Source: Halomarina pelagica (GTDB taxonomy: Archaea > Halobacteriota > Halobacteria > Halobacteriales > Haloarculaceae). From it: a stretch of DNA of 64,000 bases. Positions within the stretch are counted from its first letter, which is position 1, and every line of letters begins with the position of its first letter. The notes below the pieces were generated by a model. It had not been told where the DNA came from. It ran no database searches and was given only the letters and a program-made list of their open reading frames with translations. Below, one piece after another: positions 22,450 through 28,429 of this stretch. The position numbers and the translations under genes were made by a program. The stretch lies in contig NZ_CP100454.1 in the NCBI RefSeq assembly GCF_024228315.1, positions 1,178,001-1,242,000 of the forward strand, given 5' to 3'.

Positions 22450-23031
22450 ATGCCCGGACCGGTCTTCCTGGAGGGCGAGGCGGTCACCCTCCGGCCGATA
22501 GAGGAGGAGGACGTCGAGTTCCTCCAGCGATGCATGAACGACCCGCGCGTCTGGCGTTACGCGCTCGACGTGAACCCCACGAACCGCGTGCAGACGGAGG
22601 CGTTCTTCGAGGACGTGCTCTCCGGCGACGACGGCGTCCACTGCCTCGCCTGCGACGGCGACGAACCGCTGGGCGTCGTCTCGCTGACCGGCTCTCGCTA
22701 CGGCCCGGACGAGACGGCCCGGGCGCGCGCCGCGGAACTCGCCTACTGGTTCGCGCCCGAACGCCACGGTCGGGGGTACGGCTCCGACGCCGCCGCGACG
22801 ATGGTCCGGTACGCCTTCGAGGACCGGAACCTCCGGCGCGTGAGCGCGCGCCTCGGGAGCTTCAACGACGCCTCGGCGGGCCTGCTGGAGTCGCTCGGCT
22901 TCGAGCACGAGGGCACCCTGCGGGAGGCGGCGTGGTTCCGCGGCGAGTACCACGACGTGCGCTGGTACGGCCTCCTGCGCGAGGAGTGGCGGGCGCGGGA
23001 GGAGGGACCGCGACCCGACGACGGTACGTGA
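22450..23031 (+). CDS. GNAT family N-acetyltransferase, RimJ/RimL type
   Basis: A 193-residue acetyltransferase. The opening GEAVTLRPIEEEDVEFLQRC, the acetyl-CoA loop FAPERHGRGYGSDAAATMV and the ending VSARLGSFNDASAGLLESLGFEHEG-like region (LGSFNDASAGLLESLGF) fit the RimJ/RimL or SpeG-like subgroup that acetylates protein N-termini or small amines. The start at 22450 gives MPGPVFLEGE, as in relatives; an in-frame ATG at 22300 is too far upstream. It is divergent from the DUF7344/HalOD1 operon. Confidence 0.85.
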   Translation: MPGPVFLEGEAVTLRPIEEEDVEFLQRCMNDPRVWRYALDVNPTNRVQTEAFFEDVLSGDDGVHCLACDGDEPLGVVSLTGSRYGPDETARARAAELAYWFAPERHGRGYGSDAAATMVRYAFEDRNLRRVSARLGSFNDASAGLLESLGFEHEGTLREAAWFRGEYHDVRWYGLLREEWRAREEGPRPDDGT

Positions 23032-23141
23032 CGAGCGTCCGTCGCGGGCTCCCGCCGTTTCCGGTACCGCTCTCCGCGCTACTGCCGTCGAATCGTCGTC
23101 GTTACGCTCGAATAGCAGCGGTCGTCGTCCCCTGACGACCG

Positions 23142-23558
23142 ATGTCGAACCCCAAGACTTACCGGCTCGCCGGCCACCTGGGTCAGGGTATGACCGACGT
23201 GATATTGGCCGAACAAGAAATCGAACCCGGACGGACGGAGGACGCCGTGGCCCTGTTCGAAGAGATCGGCCGAGTGAGAGACGCCGATGACGTGATGTCG
23301 GCCCTGGAGAGAGAGGGCGTCCACACGGAGTCCGCGTTTCTCCGGCGAACTGACGAGGCCGACTACGTACTGTACTACATCGAAGCCGAGGACGGTGAGC
23401 AGGTGTACGACGTCTATCGGGACATCGTGACGGACCCCGAGGGAGAAGCGGAGGGGCTCGCGGAATTCGTCCGCGAGTTCAACGACGTAATGGCGGGCGA
23501 ACCGTCCGTGGTCGAGGCCGACCTCCTCTATCACCTCGTGACTCCCGACCGTCCCTGA
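23142..23558 (+). CDS. conserved small protein, possibly DUF6176
   Basis: A 138-residue soluble acidic protein. VILAEQEIEPGRTEDAVALF, then a central segment ending VLYYIEAEDGEQVYDVYRDI, suggests a dimeric alpha-beta barrel fold such as the archaeal DUF6176 family; this match is from memory. Translation may start at 23142 or at the internal ATG at 23190 (MTDVILAEQE), which better matches the family start. No catalytic motif is visible. Confidence 0.55.
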   Translation: MSNPKTYRLAGHLGQGMTDVILAEQEIEPGRTEDAVALFEEIGRVRDADDVMSALEREGVHTESAFLRRTDEADYVLYYIEAEDGEQVYDVYRDIVTDPEGEAEGLAEFVREFNDVMAGEPSVVEADLLYHLVTPDRP

Positions 23559-23651
23559 GTTCGGGAGGCGACGGACGAATCCGCCACGGAGGGGGCGCTG
23601 GCCCCGTCGTGACGGTAGGACGTAGCGCACTCGTGCGGGCAAAAGCTACGT

Positions 23652-23813
23652 TCAGCCCTGGAGAGCCGAAACCCCGTACTCGACAACGACGCGCTCGACG
23701 ATGCCGCGCGAGCGCCGAGCCGGTATCGTCAGTTCCGTGAGATCGTCCTGGTGTTCACCCTCATAGACGTAGAGCCGCCGTGTGAACCGCTGTAACCGTA
23801 AATTAGCGTCTGT
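23652..23813 (-). pseudogene. possible gene fragment in an intergenic stretch
   Basis: The 306-base gap between the genes at 23558 and 23865 holds no complete gene, but on the minus strand 54 codons are open to a TGA at 23652. The peptide (RRLYVYEGEHQDDLTELTIP and ERVVVEYGVSAL) looks protein-like, has no start codon and is cut off by a stop upstream. It could be the 3' end of a decayed gene. Family unknown. Confidence 0.25.
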
Positions 23814-23864
23814 TCAACACGGCAGAAGACACCAATTCAAGACGACCAGGCACCTAGCTCAGGT

Positions 23865-24392
23865 ATGCCTTTATCTACCATGGACAAACGCGCCTTCCTG
23901 AGAGCGGTCGGTGCGCTCTTCGCGGGGGTCGCGTGGAGTTCGAGAGCTACCGGTCGGGCTCGAGCCGACGACATCGTCGAGTTCCGGCGTGGACCGACCG
24001 ATCGGTGTACCCGCTTCGTCGAGTACGAGGAACGTGACGGAGAGGAGTTCGAACACTGTGACGGACCCGACAGGGAATTCACCGAAGAGATCGACGACGA
24101 CGGCGACGAGGAGCAGACGGAGGTCGAGCGGAACGGGCCGGTCCGCCGGACGACCGAAGAGGAGGACGGCGAGGGGGAGGAACGGATCTACGACGAGAAC
24201 GGAACCCTCCGGTTCCGGCGAAAGGAGGACGACGACGGCGACGAGCGGACGTGGCGGTTCGACGAGAACGGGACGCTTCGCGTGTCCGAGGAGAACGACG
24301 AGGACGGCGACGACAGCCGCCGTATCTACGACGCGAACGGCGCTCTCGTCGACTCACACCGGGACGACGACGACGACCTCTTCGACGACTGA
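23865..24392 (+). CDS. exported highly acidic protein with repeated DENG motifs
   Basis: A 175-residue protein. If translation starts at the second ATG (23880, MDKRAFLRAVGALFAGVAWS), it has a clear N-terminal signal sequence ending near ATGRARA. The mature part is dominated by Asp and Glu and contains three copies of a short unit: YDENGTLRF, FDENGTLRV and YDANGALVD, spaced about 26 residues. The unit recalls YD or MORN_2-like repeats. No family was recognised; a surface-exposed, possibly calcium-binding protein is a guess. Confidence 0.6.
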   Translation: MPLSTMDKRAFLRAVGALFAGVAWSSRATGRARADDIVEFRRGPTDRCTRFVEYEERDGEEFEHCDGPDREFTEEIDDDGDEEQTEVERNGPVRRTTEEEDGEGEERIYDENGTLRFRRKEDDDGDERTWRFDENGTLRVSEENDEDGDDSRRIYDANGALVDSHRDDDDDLFDD

Positions 24393-24581
24393 AGGCGGAG
24401 TCCGAGTAGCGTCAACCGGTTCTGTCGAGTCCGGACGCGGCGACAGAGTTGCCTATCGCTGGGTCCCGTTCACCCGGCAGTCGTCGTCTCTTCGACTGGA
24501 CCGTCTCCCTGTGCGCGACGGCGTACCGATACGTGTTCTTCGGGGAAACTGCTATATTCGGTCACGTCCGTATCGGTTCGT

Positions 24582-24905
24582 ATGCCGGTCGGAGAGACCA
24601 TCCTGCTCGGGTTCGCGACCGGTCTGTGTCTCCTGTTCGCGTGGGCGATCGACCGCCACGGTGCCGTCTCCCTGATCGCCGGCTACCGAGCGGGCGAGTT
24701 CTCCCCGGCACGGGAGCGGGAACTCGCGGTCGACGTGCGGAACGTGCTGCTGGCCGTCGCGGGACTTCTCGGACTCCTCGTCGTCGACGCGTGGACCGGT
24801 CGCCTCCCGTGGGCCGGCGAACTCGTGACGATCGGAACCCTCCTCCTCGCCGGGTGGATCGTCTGGAAATACAACGTGGGAAACGATGAGACGGAAACGA
24901 TCTGA
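24582..24905 (+). CDS. small membrane protein, DUF3784-like
   Basis: A 107-residue protein with three transmembrane segments (ILLGFATGLCLLFAWAI, VLLAVAGLLGLLVVDAW, LVTIGTLLLAGWIVWKY). The motif SLIAGYRAGEFSPARE after the first helix recalls DUF3784, in which a similar AGY motif follows the first helix. Function unknown. Its end overlaps the possible start of the next gene. Confidence 0.6.
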   Translation: MPVGETILLGFATGLCLLFAWAIDRHGAVSLIAGYRAGEFSPARERELAVDVRNVLLAVAGLLGLLVVDAWTGRLPWAGELVTIGTLLLAGWIVWKYNVGNDETETI

Positions 24906-25173
24906 CGCGGACGACGCTCCGATGTCGGCGGCCGACCCCCGGGGAAACGAGCCGTTCTACGTCGACCCGGACTGTTCGACCTGCGGGACGCGACTCGTCC
25001 TGCTCGACGTGCACCGGCAGAGCGACGTCCCGGTCGAGCCGGGGGAGATCTGGCACGACGAGTGGTGGTGTCCGGCGTGCGAGGACGGGATTCACATGGA
25101 CTGGCCCGAGTCCGCGTTCGAGCGACTGACGGAGCTATCGGAGGCGGAGGCGAGACCGTTCGAGGAACTGTGA
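24886..25173 (+). CDS. small zinc-binding protein
   Basis: A 95-residue acidic protein with two CxxC pairs (DCSTCGTRLVLLD and WWCPACEDGIHMDW) predicting one zinc ion. The first in-frame ATG at 24886 overlaps the preceding gene by 20 bases; the ATG at 24922 (MSAADPRGNE) avoids the overlap and is about as likely. I do not recognise a named family. It is the last high-GC gene before the AT-rich island. Confidence 0.6.
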   Translation: MRRKRSDADDAPMSAADPRGNEPFYVDPDCSTCGTRLVLLDVHRQSDVPVEPGEIWHDEWWCPACEDGIHMDWPESAFERLTELSEAEARPFEEL

Positions 25174-25191
25174 GTTGCTGAGGGTAATCCG

Positions 25192-25598
25192 GTCGATAAG
25201 GAACAAGTCGAGTTCGTTCTGAACTATCTAGGATGGTTTGTGGACGCCTCTATGCACCGTTGCTGTCGGTTCTCTGGCGGTGTGGCGTACGCTCAGGGAC
25301 AATCAGGGCCTTCGACGTCGAGGACTACGACCGGGAGAACGAGTGGCTTCGTGCTGTCCACCGGGAAGGCACACCGCTCAAGAACAAGGAGAGGAGAGAG
25401 CGGCTGATCGCCCTAAGCCTGGATACCTGCCAAGTCTTGAACGACTACGTTGACCACACTCGGCACGACGTCACTGGCAAGGTAGAGCGAAATCCCTTGT
25501 TTGCCACTCAGTTTTCTTGGAGAAAGCAGGAGGTATTTGGCCACAGAATAAAGCGAAGTGGCTTCAGCGCCGCCTCACAGAATGTCCAGAAATTCTAG
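25192..25598 (+). pseudogene. decayed tyrosine recombinase / integrase (frameshift, truncated)
   Basis: Two overlapping frames together spell a haloarchaeal XerC/D-like integrase. From 25192 one frame reads VDKEQVEFVLNYLGWFVDAS; near 25253-25262 the similarity moves to another frame that reads LLSVLWRCGVRSGTIRAFDV, then EDYDREN and GTPLKNKERRERLIALSLDT. A single indel explains this. The C-terminal catalytic HxxR and Tyr box is missing: after DPLF-like NPLFATQF the sequence degenerates and stops at 25598. It marks an old integration event at the left edge of the AT-rich island. Confidence 0.75.
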
Positions 25599-25990
25599 AA
25601 TTTTCGTCATTTGTGGCAAGAATTAGGCATTGACAGGGCAATCGAGGTTGTCACCCTCTCGATTGGCAACGCTTGGGCATCTACTTGTGACAACCTTGCT
25701 TGGTCAGTAGCGGCAACATCTCGCCACAGAACTGAACGATATCGTAATTACTGGCCGTTGGAATTTGGGGGCACTGCCAACCAATCAGTTTCCGTTCTGT
25801 AGTAAAATGAATCGTGTGGGCGGCTTCCTGACGATTTCCATTTGTTGACAAGTGGTAACCGTCAATGGACTCGGGTAGGTTCGTCAAGTTGACTGCATAG
25901 TGCAACAGCGGCGGCAGTGATTTTAGGAAGAGTTAGAGACTAATGGTACACTATGACCGTTCGATCAAAAAGTACCACTGCGTATGAGTA
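25599..25990. other. AT-rich stretch without a confident gene
   Basis: Lower GC than the flanking chromosome. It holds a 74-codon minus-strand frame (listed separately) and otherwise only short frames. Probably debris left by mobile DNA. Confidence 0.4.
25681..25905 (-). CDS. possible small hypothetical protein or gene fragment
   Basis: A 74-codon frame with protein-like composition (SIDGYHLSTNGNRQEAAHTI, then FTTERKLIGWQCPQ). No family was recognised and no promoter or partner is evident. It may be a fragment of a larger decayed gene; the opposite strand also has an open frame here. Confidence 0.25.
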   Translation of the reverse strand: MHYAVNLTNLPESIDGYHLSTNGNRQEAAHTIHFTTERKLIGWQCPQIPTASNYDIVQFCGEMLPLLTKQGCHK

Positions 25991-25998
25991 GATATATC
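25991..25998 (+). promoter_or_regulatory. TATA box of the island operon
   Basis: GATATATC lies about 35 bases before the ATG at 26030 and would start transcription near 26018-26022, giving a very short leader. Confidence 0.5.
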
Positions 25999-26029
25999 AT
26001 CTCATGGGTGTTCAGATAAGAACAACGAC

Positions 26030-26656
26030 ATGGTGAATGGCGTCTTCACGAAGTGGCTATCCAGCAGTACACCAAAATTGGATAAGCTGCTTAAGGTCCC
26101 ATTCGACTATCAACCAGAGGCTGAGGACGAATGTGTGATCTACTGTATCTGGATGGCACTACATTACTTTAAAAACAAACACCCAAATGTAGATCTCAGA
26201 AAGGCTACGGAATCACTATCGCCAGACGAAATCATGGAAGACATGACGATCGTAGAGGGAGGATGGAAGCCGAACCAAGACGAGCTCACGGTCGTTTCCG
26301 AGCGGACAAATACTCTGCAGTTCAGTCTCAATGCTTGGCAGGACGGCGCTCCTAAATCTCTATTCAGCATGGTGAAAGAGAACATACAAAACGAGCGACC
26401 AATCATTCCGTTCATCAATGGCTCCCGATTACGGGAGAAGACACGGGAAAATGACGGTGTTCATGCGGTCGTTGCATCTGGCTATAGCCTGCCTCAGGAC
26501 GGAGACGAATTTGTAGCAATCCACGATCCATGGGGATATCCAGAAGACATCGTAGAGAGGCAGAAGTTAGAAGATGCTTGGGACCCGTGGTTCAATCAAG
26601 TACTCACAGTATCCCTCTCAAGAAGAGGCTCGAAAATCGTGGGTGGAAATAAATGA
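26030..26656 (+). CDS. C39-like (papain-fold) cysteine peptidase domain protein
   Basis: A 208-residue soluble protein. The N-terminal VPFDYQPEAEDECVIYCIWM, with Gln28 and Cys35 starting a long helix (MALHYF), resembles the oxyanion Gln and catalytic Cys of C39-like peptidases; GVHAVVASGY supplies His145 and AIHDPWG Asp166, in the order and spacing of that fold. Such domains cleave peptides, often at double-glycine sites. There is no transmembrane or ABC part and no signal peptide, so it acts in the cytoplasm. It is first in an operon; the next gene's ATG overlaps its stop (ATGA). Base composition is AT-rich, unlike the flanking chromosome, pointing to transfer. Confidence 0.7.
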   Translation: MVNGVFTKWLSSSTPKLDKLLKVPFDYQPEAEDECVIYCIWMALHYFKNKHPNVDLRKATESLSPDEIMEDMTIVEGGWKPNQDELTVVSERTNTLQFSLNAWQDGAPKSLFSMVKENIQNERPIIPFINGSRLREKTRENDGVHAVVASGYSLPQDGDEFVAIHDPWGYPEDIVERQKLEDAWDPWFNQVLTVSLSRRGSKIVGGNK

Positions 26657-27621
26657 GTATCGAACAAGCCAACATCTCGGAAGATGATGCGCGCAAGAAG
26701 GCAGAGTACATACTCAGGTTCAAAATCGGACCACAATACAGTTTAGGCGATATAGAAGTAAATGGGTCTGACTTCGTGTTCCCTATCTTCATTAGTCCAC
26801 CCAGAGTGATCTTTGACGAGCTTCGTCAGAACCCAGTTGACGTGGATTATCTTGATCCAACTAGGGTCGGTAAAATTCGGGTTAGCAAAAAGGGAGAGAC
26901 GGAATATACCCACCCACAAACCGTTTACAGGAGAGTACGCGACTATGAGAAAGAGATCCAACAAGCGGTAGAGAAAGCGCTCATCAGCTCTGCGGCAAAG
27001 GACTTCACTCAACTTCCTTTCCCCGAAAACCGATACGCGCCTGTCGAGGATATCCTTGCAGAGGTGATCCTTCGCAACACTGTACCACTTGATGAGATTG
27101 AAGCTCTGGATTCGCCAGATGACAATGAACGTGGTAAATATGCAAAGTACGTTGAGGAGCTAGAGAGTATTGATTTACTCAAGACACGAGACGGAGTTGT
27201 GGGTGCTGGCAATTTCCTTAAAGAAGCGCGTAGGGATAATGATAAAAATCACGAGATTCTAAATACAGCTCTCGCACATTACTTCCGTGAAAACGTGAAT
27301 GATCTTGAAAAGATACACGGTGTGTTAGGTCCTTATTTAGCAGTAGCTGGGTTCTATTACCGTTTGGCGATCGAGTCAGACACACTTCCAAAGGTTGATG
27401 AAAGTAGTCTACGAGATGCTTTCGAAAAACACTACCAAGGCAAAGGCCGTCAGACCGATCTGAAGCTATTCAAACTTTCTCGCTACCTGCTTCATTTAGA
27501 GCGCGCAGGTATCCTCAAACCGATTACGCAGTCCAACCGCCGGGTATGGTATGGGGTCGATAAGATCAAGGACGATTTGGAAGAACAAACACACTATGTC
27601 GGCGCAATAACTGCGGTATAG
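26653..27621 (+). CDS. uncharacterised protein with winged-helix-like domains, partner of the C39-like peptidase
   Basis: A 322-residue soluble protein. The N-terminal 110 residues look like a strand-rich domain (YSLGDIEVNGSDFVFPIFIS, GKIRVSKKGETEY). A winged-helix-like region covers about 128-185 (YAPVEDILAEVILRN, KYVEELESIDLLKTRDGVVG), then a helical middle, and a second winged-helix-like region ends the protein (LFKLSRYLLHLERAGILKPI, RRVWYGVDKIKDDL). I do not recognise the family. The 4-base overlap with the peptidase gene implies translational coupling and a shared function: it may bind DNA, or present a cleavage site or scaffold for the peptidase. Confidence 0.65.
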   Translation: MSIEQANISEDDARKKAEYILRFKIGPQYSLGDIEVNGSDFVFPIFISPPRVIFDELRQNPVDVDYLDPTRVGKIRVSKKGETEYTHPQTVYRRVRDYEKEIQQAVEKALISSAAKDFTQLPFPENRYAPVEDILAEVILRNTVPLDEIEALDSPDDNERGKYAKYVEELESIDLLKTRDGVVGAGNFLKEARRDNDKNHEILNTALAHYFRENVNDLEKIHGVLGPYLAVAGFYYRLAIESDTLPKVDESSLRDAFEKHYQGKGRQTDLKLFKLSRYLLHLERAGILKPITQSNRRVWYGVDKIKDDLEEQTHYVGAITAV

Positions 27622-27625
27622 TGCG

Positions 27626-27814
27626 CTACAATAAGTGTTCACAGACTGCAACGATAAACGCAGGAACTCCCGCGGAGAGTGCGAACACCAACATAATCTC
27701 TTTCGAATAATTGAACTCTAGACCATCTTCGCGCAGATAAGACAAGACAGCCACAATAATAGTTGATAACGGCCCCCAGAAAGTATAAAAAATTGCCAAA
27801 GAGGTACAGCACAT
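27626..27814 (-). CDS. tiny two-helix membrane protein
   Basis: A 62-residue protein with two hydrophobic segments (SLAIFYTFWGPLSTIIVAVL and IMLVFALSAGVPAFIVAV) around a charged loop. It starts one base after the stop of the 87-residue gene, so the two are read from one transcript. Its stop codon lies five bases from the stop of the convergent winged-helix protein gene. AT-rich. No family recognised. Confidence 0.5.
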   Translation of the reverse strand: MCCTSLAIFYTFWGPLSTIIVAVLSYLREDGLEFNYSKEIMLVFALSAGVPAFIVAVCEHLL

Positions 27815-27815
27815 T

Positions 27816-28079
27816 CTACAACCACCCTAATTGTGACAACAAGGCGGGGATTTGAAGTAAGATCGCCAAAAAATATCCGATATACTGTGGCTCAATACGT
27901 GAGCGAAGGGAACTGGCTGATTCATCAGGTGGCCGGCTTCCTACTGGGATTTCGCTTGGGTGCGATGGTGGGGAATCACTGATTGTACTCTCGGTGGAAC
28001 TAGCAGCCCGGTAGTAATCAAGACTTGCAGTTATTAAGAGCAGTAGCCCCCCAAGAATCGAAAGATCAAGATAGGCCAT
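27816..28079 (-). CDS. small membrane protein with a Ser/Pro-rich central loop
   Basis: An 87-residue protein with an N-terminal hydrophobic helix (LSILGGLLLLITASLDYY), a hydrophilic loop rich in Ser, Pro and acidic residues, and a second helix (YIGYFLAILLQIPALLSQLG). It is followed one base later by the 62-residue membrane protein. The pair could be two halves of an older four-helix protein split by a frameshift, or a genuine two-subunit membrane component. Confidence 0.5.
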   Translation of the reverse strand: MAYLDLSILGGLLLLITASLDYYRAASSTESTISDSPPSHPSEIPVGSRPPDESASSLRSRIEPQYIGYFLAILLQIPALLSQLGWL

Positions 28080-28400
28080 AGGATGTGGATAGACTAAGAA
28101 TATATCAATTTACTCAATCCATGTCGATTAGGAACCTGAATACACTCGATTACAAATCCAATCGAAGATGTAATGTTGCTGTTGAGCCACTGGCGACCCG
28201 CCTTCTTGCTTAGTCAAGAACAGCAACGCCACTTCTCTCTAGCAGAATCACCGGTTCATGTTGAGTCGGTCCCGGACGAGCAAAGCAGTGAGCCTTGATA
28301 AGAACTATTACGCCACCTGGCCACGTATCTACAGAACCCCTTGACGGCACGGGGAGAAACACCAACGATGTGTGTATCAATGGCCAAGTTCCAGAGACTA
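28080..28400. other. right edge of the AT-rich island, no gene
   Basis: No coding sequence was identified. It contains an inverted repeat (28175-28183 with 28219-28227) and returns to high GC after about 28430. Likely IS debris or an integration junction. Confidence 0.4.
28175..28227. repeat. inverted repeat with GTTGCTGTT arms
   Basis: GTTGCTGTT at 28175-28183 and its exact complement AACAGCAAC at 28219-28227 enclose 35 bases. The same 9-mer, also preceded by AAT, occurs at 4852-4860 beside another suspected gene remnant. Confidence 0.5.
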
Positions 28401-28408
28401 TTTAAATA
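28401..28408 (+). promoter_or_regulatory. TATA box of the DUF6293 regulator gene
   Basis: TTTAAATA lies 29 bases before the ATG at 28430, predicting a leaderless transcript and supporting that start. Confidence 0.6.
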
Positions 28409-28429
28409 CTCACCGACGCCGTAAGGCGT

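Follow-up and report, generated by a model that had tools for sequence, protein, structure and literature searches.

A conserved two-gene module of haloarchaea and related archaea, formed by a C39-like papain-fold protein and a partner of no assigned family

What does a pair of overlapping, AT-rich genes in GC-rich haloarchaeal DNA do, and do the two genes stay together elsewhere? The pair lies in a window (the whole 64,000-nucleotide stretch of Halomarina pelagica DNA that was analysed), where gene A (GC 0.48) and gene B (GC 0.46) sit between flanks of GC 0.69 and 0.72 and share the bases ATGA at their junction, a 4 bp overlap. A preliminary description, made from the DNA letters, had reported two AT-rich genes overlapping by four bases within a mobile island, and both open reading frames (ORFs), the overlap and the base composition were found as described. 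The island contained the following features.

25180-28413, no strand: island holding an integrase fragment, A, B and two small membrane ORFs
25233-25598, plus strand: tyrosine integrase fragment, 121 aa (Phage_integrase E 2.5e-4, below cut-off; phrog_216 E 1.6e-5)
26030-26656, plus strand: gene A, stand-alone C39-like papain-fold protein, 208 aa (Pfam PF13529, structure model, 3erv match)
26653-27621, plus strand: gene B, 322-aa partner without a family, beside A in all loci examined
27626-27814, minus strand: second small ORF with hydrophobic segments (hydropathy), which is possibly a gene of its own or else the remainder of the 27816-28079 ORF
27816-28079, minus strand: small ORF with hydrophobic segments (hydropathy), convergent to B and a possible third component, resembling the clade-I membrane gene described below collinearly but very weakly

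The closest relative, genome G439 (L094), aligned to the window up to position 25179 and resumed at 28414, with about 290 bp in between. Positions 25180-28413 are thus an insertion missing from the closest relative at this place, and this empty site and the integrase fragment together upheld the reported residence in a mobile island. Five more genomes of the genus were searched and matched neither A nor B, and the island had no DNA-level match in the plasmid collection. Just left of the island, most of window positions 23008-24917 was missing from the closest relative too, so variability here extends past the A-B insertion.

The Pfam family Peptidase_C39_2 (PF13529) covered residues 21-168 of gene A, scoring 34.4 bits where the cut-off is 24 (E 4e-8). 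The structure model of A (pLDDT 78.9, pTM 0.82; from a shallow input alignment of 7 rows taken from the window and related loci, as for B) had the C39-like peptidase 3erv as its top Foldseek match (E 4.1e-5), and 3erv was also the sole meaningful match when the gene A profile was compared with solved structures by sequence. The Foldseek list also included weak matches to UFM1- and ubiquitin-specific peptidases (E 0.003 to 0.02). Seven of ten relatives had a weak match to the Peptidase_C39 profile (PF03412). Among 10 homologues, Gln28, Cys35 and His145 were invariant and Asp166 nearly so; the corresponding codons were located as follows.

26111-26113, plus strand: Gln28, oxyanion-hole candidate (invariant in the 10 homologues)
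26132-26134, plus strand: Cys35, candidate nucleophile (invariant in the 10 homologues and in all complete clade-I proteins)
26462-26464, plus strand: His145, candidate catalytic base (invariant in the 10 homologues and in clade I)
26525-26527, plus strand: Asp166, third triad residue (Asp or Asn among relatives)

By predicted fold, profile match and residues, gene A is a member of Peptidase_C39_2 with a predicted proteolytic activity. The preliminary description had proposed a C39-like papain fold with these four residues and had named prediction of the fold beforehand as a refuting test; the papain fold was predicted, with 3erv as best match, and the four residues were conserved as given above. 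Its claim that A stands alone was borne out, the protein being single-domain with no ABC or membrane part. The label "unrecognised" given to the operon stood for B and for the pairing and failed for A, which Pfam names. Gene A as a classical exporter peptidase was rejected, there being no transporter.

Gene B had no meaningful family match in Pfam, NCBIfam, PADLOC or PHROGs and no meaningful match to solved structures by sequence. Weak hydrogenase and Abi_alpha matches, far below cut-off, were set aside. The model of B was of modest confidence (pLDDT 69.3, pTM 0.41). It comprised an N-terminal alpha/beta domain, a long helix at residues 88-115, a winged-helix-like region at about 125-186, a helical part, and a second winged-helix-like region at about 243-305. 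Within the confidence of this model, the two winged-helix-like regions and the unassigned N-terminal domain of the earlier account were seen.

26653-26910, plus strand: N-terminal alpha/beta domain of B, residues 1-86, faintly PepSY-like (model; sub-cut-off PF03413 matches in relatives)
27025-27210, plus strand: first winged-helix-like region, about residues 125-186 (model secondary structure; single winged-helix matches; acidic)
27379-27567, plus strand: second winged-helix-like region, about residues 243-305 (model secondary structure)

Foldseek matches of the B model were to single winged-helix domains only, none of those in the PDB falling below E 0.001, and the viral structure library gave much the same picture. 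The first winged-helix-like region was acidic, even in non-halophile relatives; the charge of the second was near neutral to basic in clade I. The PepSY profile (PF03413) matched the N-terminus of B in four of 13 relatives (best E 0.0027, all below cut-off) and was absent from the window copy. Secondary structure in this modest-confidence model was compatible with the PepSY arrangement of a helix followed by an antiparallel sheet, and comparison with the PepSY profile covered mainly one motif. The N-terminus of clade-I B proteins appears faintly to resemble PepSY, and the profile comparison is no more than suggestive. A conserved Gly-Gly site was looked for in B and none was seen.

Single-sequence searches found A in 10 of 391 genomes of the class and strong B matches in the same 10, adjacent each time. 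Of five weaker B matches, which pointed to a deeper family, L035, L036, L038 and L039 also had an upstream C39-like gene; the fifth (L037), which sits in an unrelated phosphatase-like protein, was taken as chance. With the B profile, matches came from 29 of 392 genomes of the order; A was upstream at each of the 18 further loci. The A profile matched in 31 of 391 genomes, its matches being the known B partners and a second copy in G280 that also had a B. Outside the class, B was found in six genomes from two other families of the phylum (E 1e-40 to 1e-54), and in each of these six loci A or its cut-off remnant lay upstream (at L118, A was missed by the profile search and read from the gene table). 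Altogether, about 8% of the haloarchaea sampled had the module, as did six archaea from outside the class.

All 39 B loci examined (identical L035 and L036 counted once) had A or a remnant directly upstream of B, the outcome of a second check proposed in the preliminary description, namely whether homologues keep both genes together. Incomplete A genes were found at L116 (cut by a contig end), L091 (ending early) and L170 (split). The 33 measured A-B junctions ranged from -4 to +5 bp, 19 of them at -4, in neighbourhoods taken from a simple ORF caller whose start codons and small genes may be wrong. The A and B trees had 23 of 32 splits in common, with a distance correlation of 0.89. A-B is a widespread conserved two-gene module of haloarchaea and related archaea.

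Several individual copies and collections added to this picture. A transposase gene at L039 (2482-5836) splits the C39-like gene A in two, with B still open. L035 and L036 were the same A-B locus with identical neighbouring proteins in genomes of different families (G269 and G334), reflecting either a recent transfer or contamination of one assembly. Genome G280 carried two pairs, one of clade I and one of clade II (L028, L170). At L091 and L092, from two genomes of one genus, the pair lay beside a phosphoribosylpyrophosphate synthetase gene, a placement by which some copies look settled and not mobile. The plasmid collection contained one B relative, in Haladaptatus. Phage records contained neither A nor B; in viral_contigs, alignment searches with A and with B and a single-sequence search with B gave no match, as did a single-sequence search of genome_contigs with A.

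The B tree revealed two clades. Clade I was comprised of the window, ten other haloarchaeal loci and the six loci from outside the class; clade II contained haloarchaea only. Cys and His were retained in 16/16 complete A proteins of clade I, with Asp or Asn as the last triad residue. Within clade II, 11 A proteins retained Cys, His and Asp. Two clade-II lineages were non-catalytic. In lineage 1 (L035, L038, L077, L078 and L079) Cys was replaced by Asp or Val and His was gone; in lineage 2 (L085, L088, L089 and L090) Gln was gone and His had become Pro, with Cys still present in L088 and L090. Given the well-supported branches of the tree, the active site must have been lost at least twice in clade II. 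Since the pair was kept through repeated loss, catalysis cannot be the sole function of A. The losses hint at a role as switch or sensor, not as a simple protease, and most A copies may cut while some may only bind. Catalytically dead papain-like domains that serve as scaffolds are known elsewhere (PMC10318531).

Genes beside the pair differed among these lineages. A small, related membrane gene lay directly after B in six clade-I loci (L030-L034 and L042), and a different membrane protein, convergent to B, was found at L028 and L029. The likeness of the window ORFs at 27626-28079 to the clade-I membrane gene was collinear and very weak. Non-catalytic lineage 1 had a convergent DUF2254-like membrane protein in all five loci. 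Non-catalytic lineage 2 had a divergent DUF2971-like gene next to A in all four loci, which was seen nowhere else.

L085:6506-7282, L088:9472-10359, L089:9700-10458 and L090:9621-10409, divergent: DUF2971-like gene (similarity below cut-off)

The third genes of these lineages occurred in 0/20 control regions, and most catalytic clade-II loci had no constant third gene. That a constant new neighbour accompanies active-site loss is a correlation, and only two events underlie it.

By PADLOC and Pfam, the 116 genes around 12 loci included type I and type IIG restriction-modification genes, a C5 methylase and seven integrases; PADLOC identified no restriction-modification genes among 116 matched control genes. 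Similarity searches placed restriction-modification genes within 8 kb of 8/32 haloarchaeal loci and of 0/20 controls (p 0.017), a count that leans towards this result because the queries were drawn from the test loci. Many clade-II copies sat among ordinary genes, and PADLOC had no model for A, B or the membrane ORFs of the window. Association of A-B with defence is therefore suggested, not established. Genes of the DUF7845 family lay near six pairs (L032 by Pfam; L028, L029, L034, L086 and L089 by similarity) and near 0/20 controls; they may mark a family of mobile elements.

The preliminary description had offered a protease-switched regulator, or an anti-phage or conflict system, as the inferred function of the pair, a claim complicated by the repeated active-site loss with the pair kept and by the many copies among ordinary genes. 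Our preferred reading, held somewhat more in doubt than in confidence, is that A-B is an intracellular two-gene regulatory switch: B would dock on A and would control a gene nearby. Genes so tightly coupled usually encode interacting proteins. A and B would associate, with B holding A in check, perhaps by way of the B N-terminal domain. The winged-helix-like parts of B would meanwhile contact DNA or some other partner, so that the operon or a nearby gene stays silent. A change in A would follow a trigger, e.g., a foreign element or a peptide ligand. In clade I and most of clade II, A would then lift the block by cutting B or a third protein; where the active site is missing, in two lineages, A would work through binding only. 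A regulatory role over peptidases has been proposed for PepSY domains (Yeats 2004, cited in PMC6393860).

The switch is favoured by the 39/39 pairing, the tight junctions, the congruent trees, the retained clade-I residues and the winged-helix-like regions of B, and also by the constant neighbour of each non-catalytic lineage and the membrane gene after B in six clade-I loci. That lineages lost the active site on at least two occasions and still kept the pair fits a binding or switching role. Against the switch stand the PepSY resemblance, which is below cut-off in relatives and absent in the window copy, the lack of a conserved Gly-Gly site in B and the lack of a constant third gene at most catalytic clade-II loci. 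The acidity of the first winged-helix-like region, even outside halophiles, argues against DNA binding by B.

Other readings explain parts of the same evidence. One is anti-virus defence, in which A-B would act as sensor or activator and the membrane protein or another neighbour as an effector that disables the infected cell. Island residence, several kinds of membrane gene beside the pair, and restriction-modification genes in the test set by both PADLOC and similarity counts point this way; the absence of PADLOC models for A and B, the many copies among ordinary genes, the origin of the queries behind the 8/32 count and the failure to see either protein in the phage and viral collections weigh against it, and we consider it unlikely on balance. 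The islands, the patchy distribution and the overlapping genes also fit a toxin-antitoxin pair, with A as a toxic peptidase and B, through a possible inhibitor domain and DNA-binding-like regions, as inhibitor and autorepressor. B exceeds the usual antitoxin size, however, and diverges less than A, and the pair was kept with a dead active site in at least two lineages; the active-site losses led us to mark the plain toxin reading down, and a toxin-antitoxin role appears quite improbable.

The same losses count against two further proposals. B might present A with a peptide substrate, in the manner of winged-helix RiPP recognition elements; a winged helix need not bind DNA, and the first winged-helix-like region of B is acidic. 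The parallel is lasso-peptide B1/B2, a winged-helix RiPP recognition element and a leader cysteine peptidase, in which a winged-helix partner likewise adjoins a cysteine peptidase (PMC13381572). The A-B pair differs in having no conserved precursor, cyclase or transporter gene beside it, and B has an extra N-terminal domain and two winged-helix-like regions, leaving peptide processing only a slim chance. Finally, A might remove a ubiquitin-like modifier as a housekeeping enzyme, with B as adaptor. The UFM1- and ubiquitin-specific peptidases among the Foldseek matches of A and the ordinary neighbourhoods of some copies are in keeping with deconjugation. Those structural matches are weak, though, and occurrence in under a tenth of genomes, together with island residence and the active-site losses, makes it very improbable.

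Comparison with known systems separates the family of A from the pair. Peptidase_C39_2 (PF13529, including 3erv) has the same fold, the same Gln/Cys/His/Asp pattern and a single domain without a transporter, whereas A is coupled to B, has lost the active site in some lineages and has no export link that was seen. Peptidase_C39 of bacteriocin exporters (PF03412) shares the fold and catalytic pattern of A, but A has no ABC or membrane part and B no conserved Gly-Gly site. The ImmA/ImmR pairs of integrative elements likewise join a peptidase gene to a DNA-binding-like partner on mobile elements; ImmA is a metallopeptidase and ImmR an Xre-type regulator. The A-B proteins are unrelated to these, their gene order is reversed and they include possible non-catalytic versions; A is C39-like, and B has no Xre-type or other family match. 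By analogy, A-B may work like ImmA/ImmR protease-repressor pairs, of which it is not a member. The family of A was already known; no description of B or of the A-B pairing was found in the papers searched.

A broader proposal, possible but on the doubtful side, would make A-B a kind of archaeal signalling module that has had no name so far. Its papain-fold protein, catalytic in most lineages and purely binding in others, would be under the hold of a partner with PepSY-like and winged-helix parts, and would in turn control interchangeable effectors, most of them membrane-bound, that serve in defence or in conflict with mobile elements. Overall, dozens of haloarchaeal and other archaeal genes that lacked annotation now have an identity that is coherent and can be tested. 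The strictly conserved pair, with an active site that was lost repeatedly, is a natural experiment on the papain fold as enzyme or sensor, and comparison of catalytic and non-catalytic versions, with their differing third genes, would tell the enzyme from the sensor.
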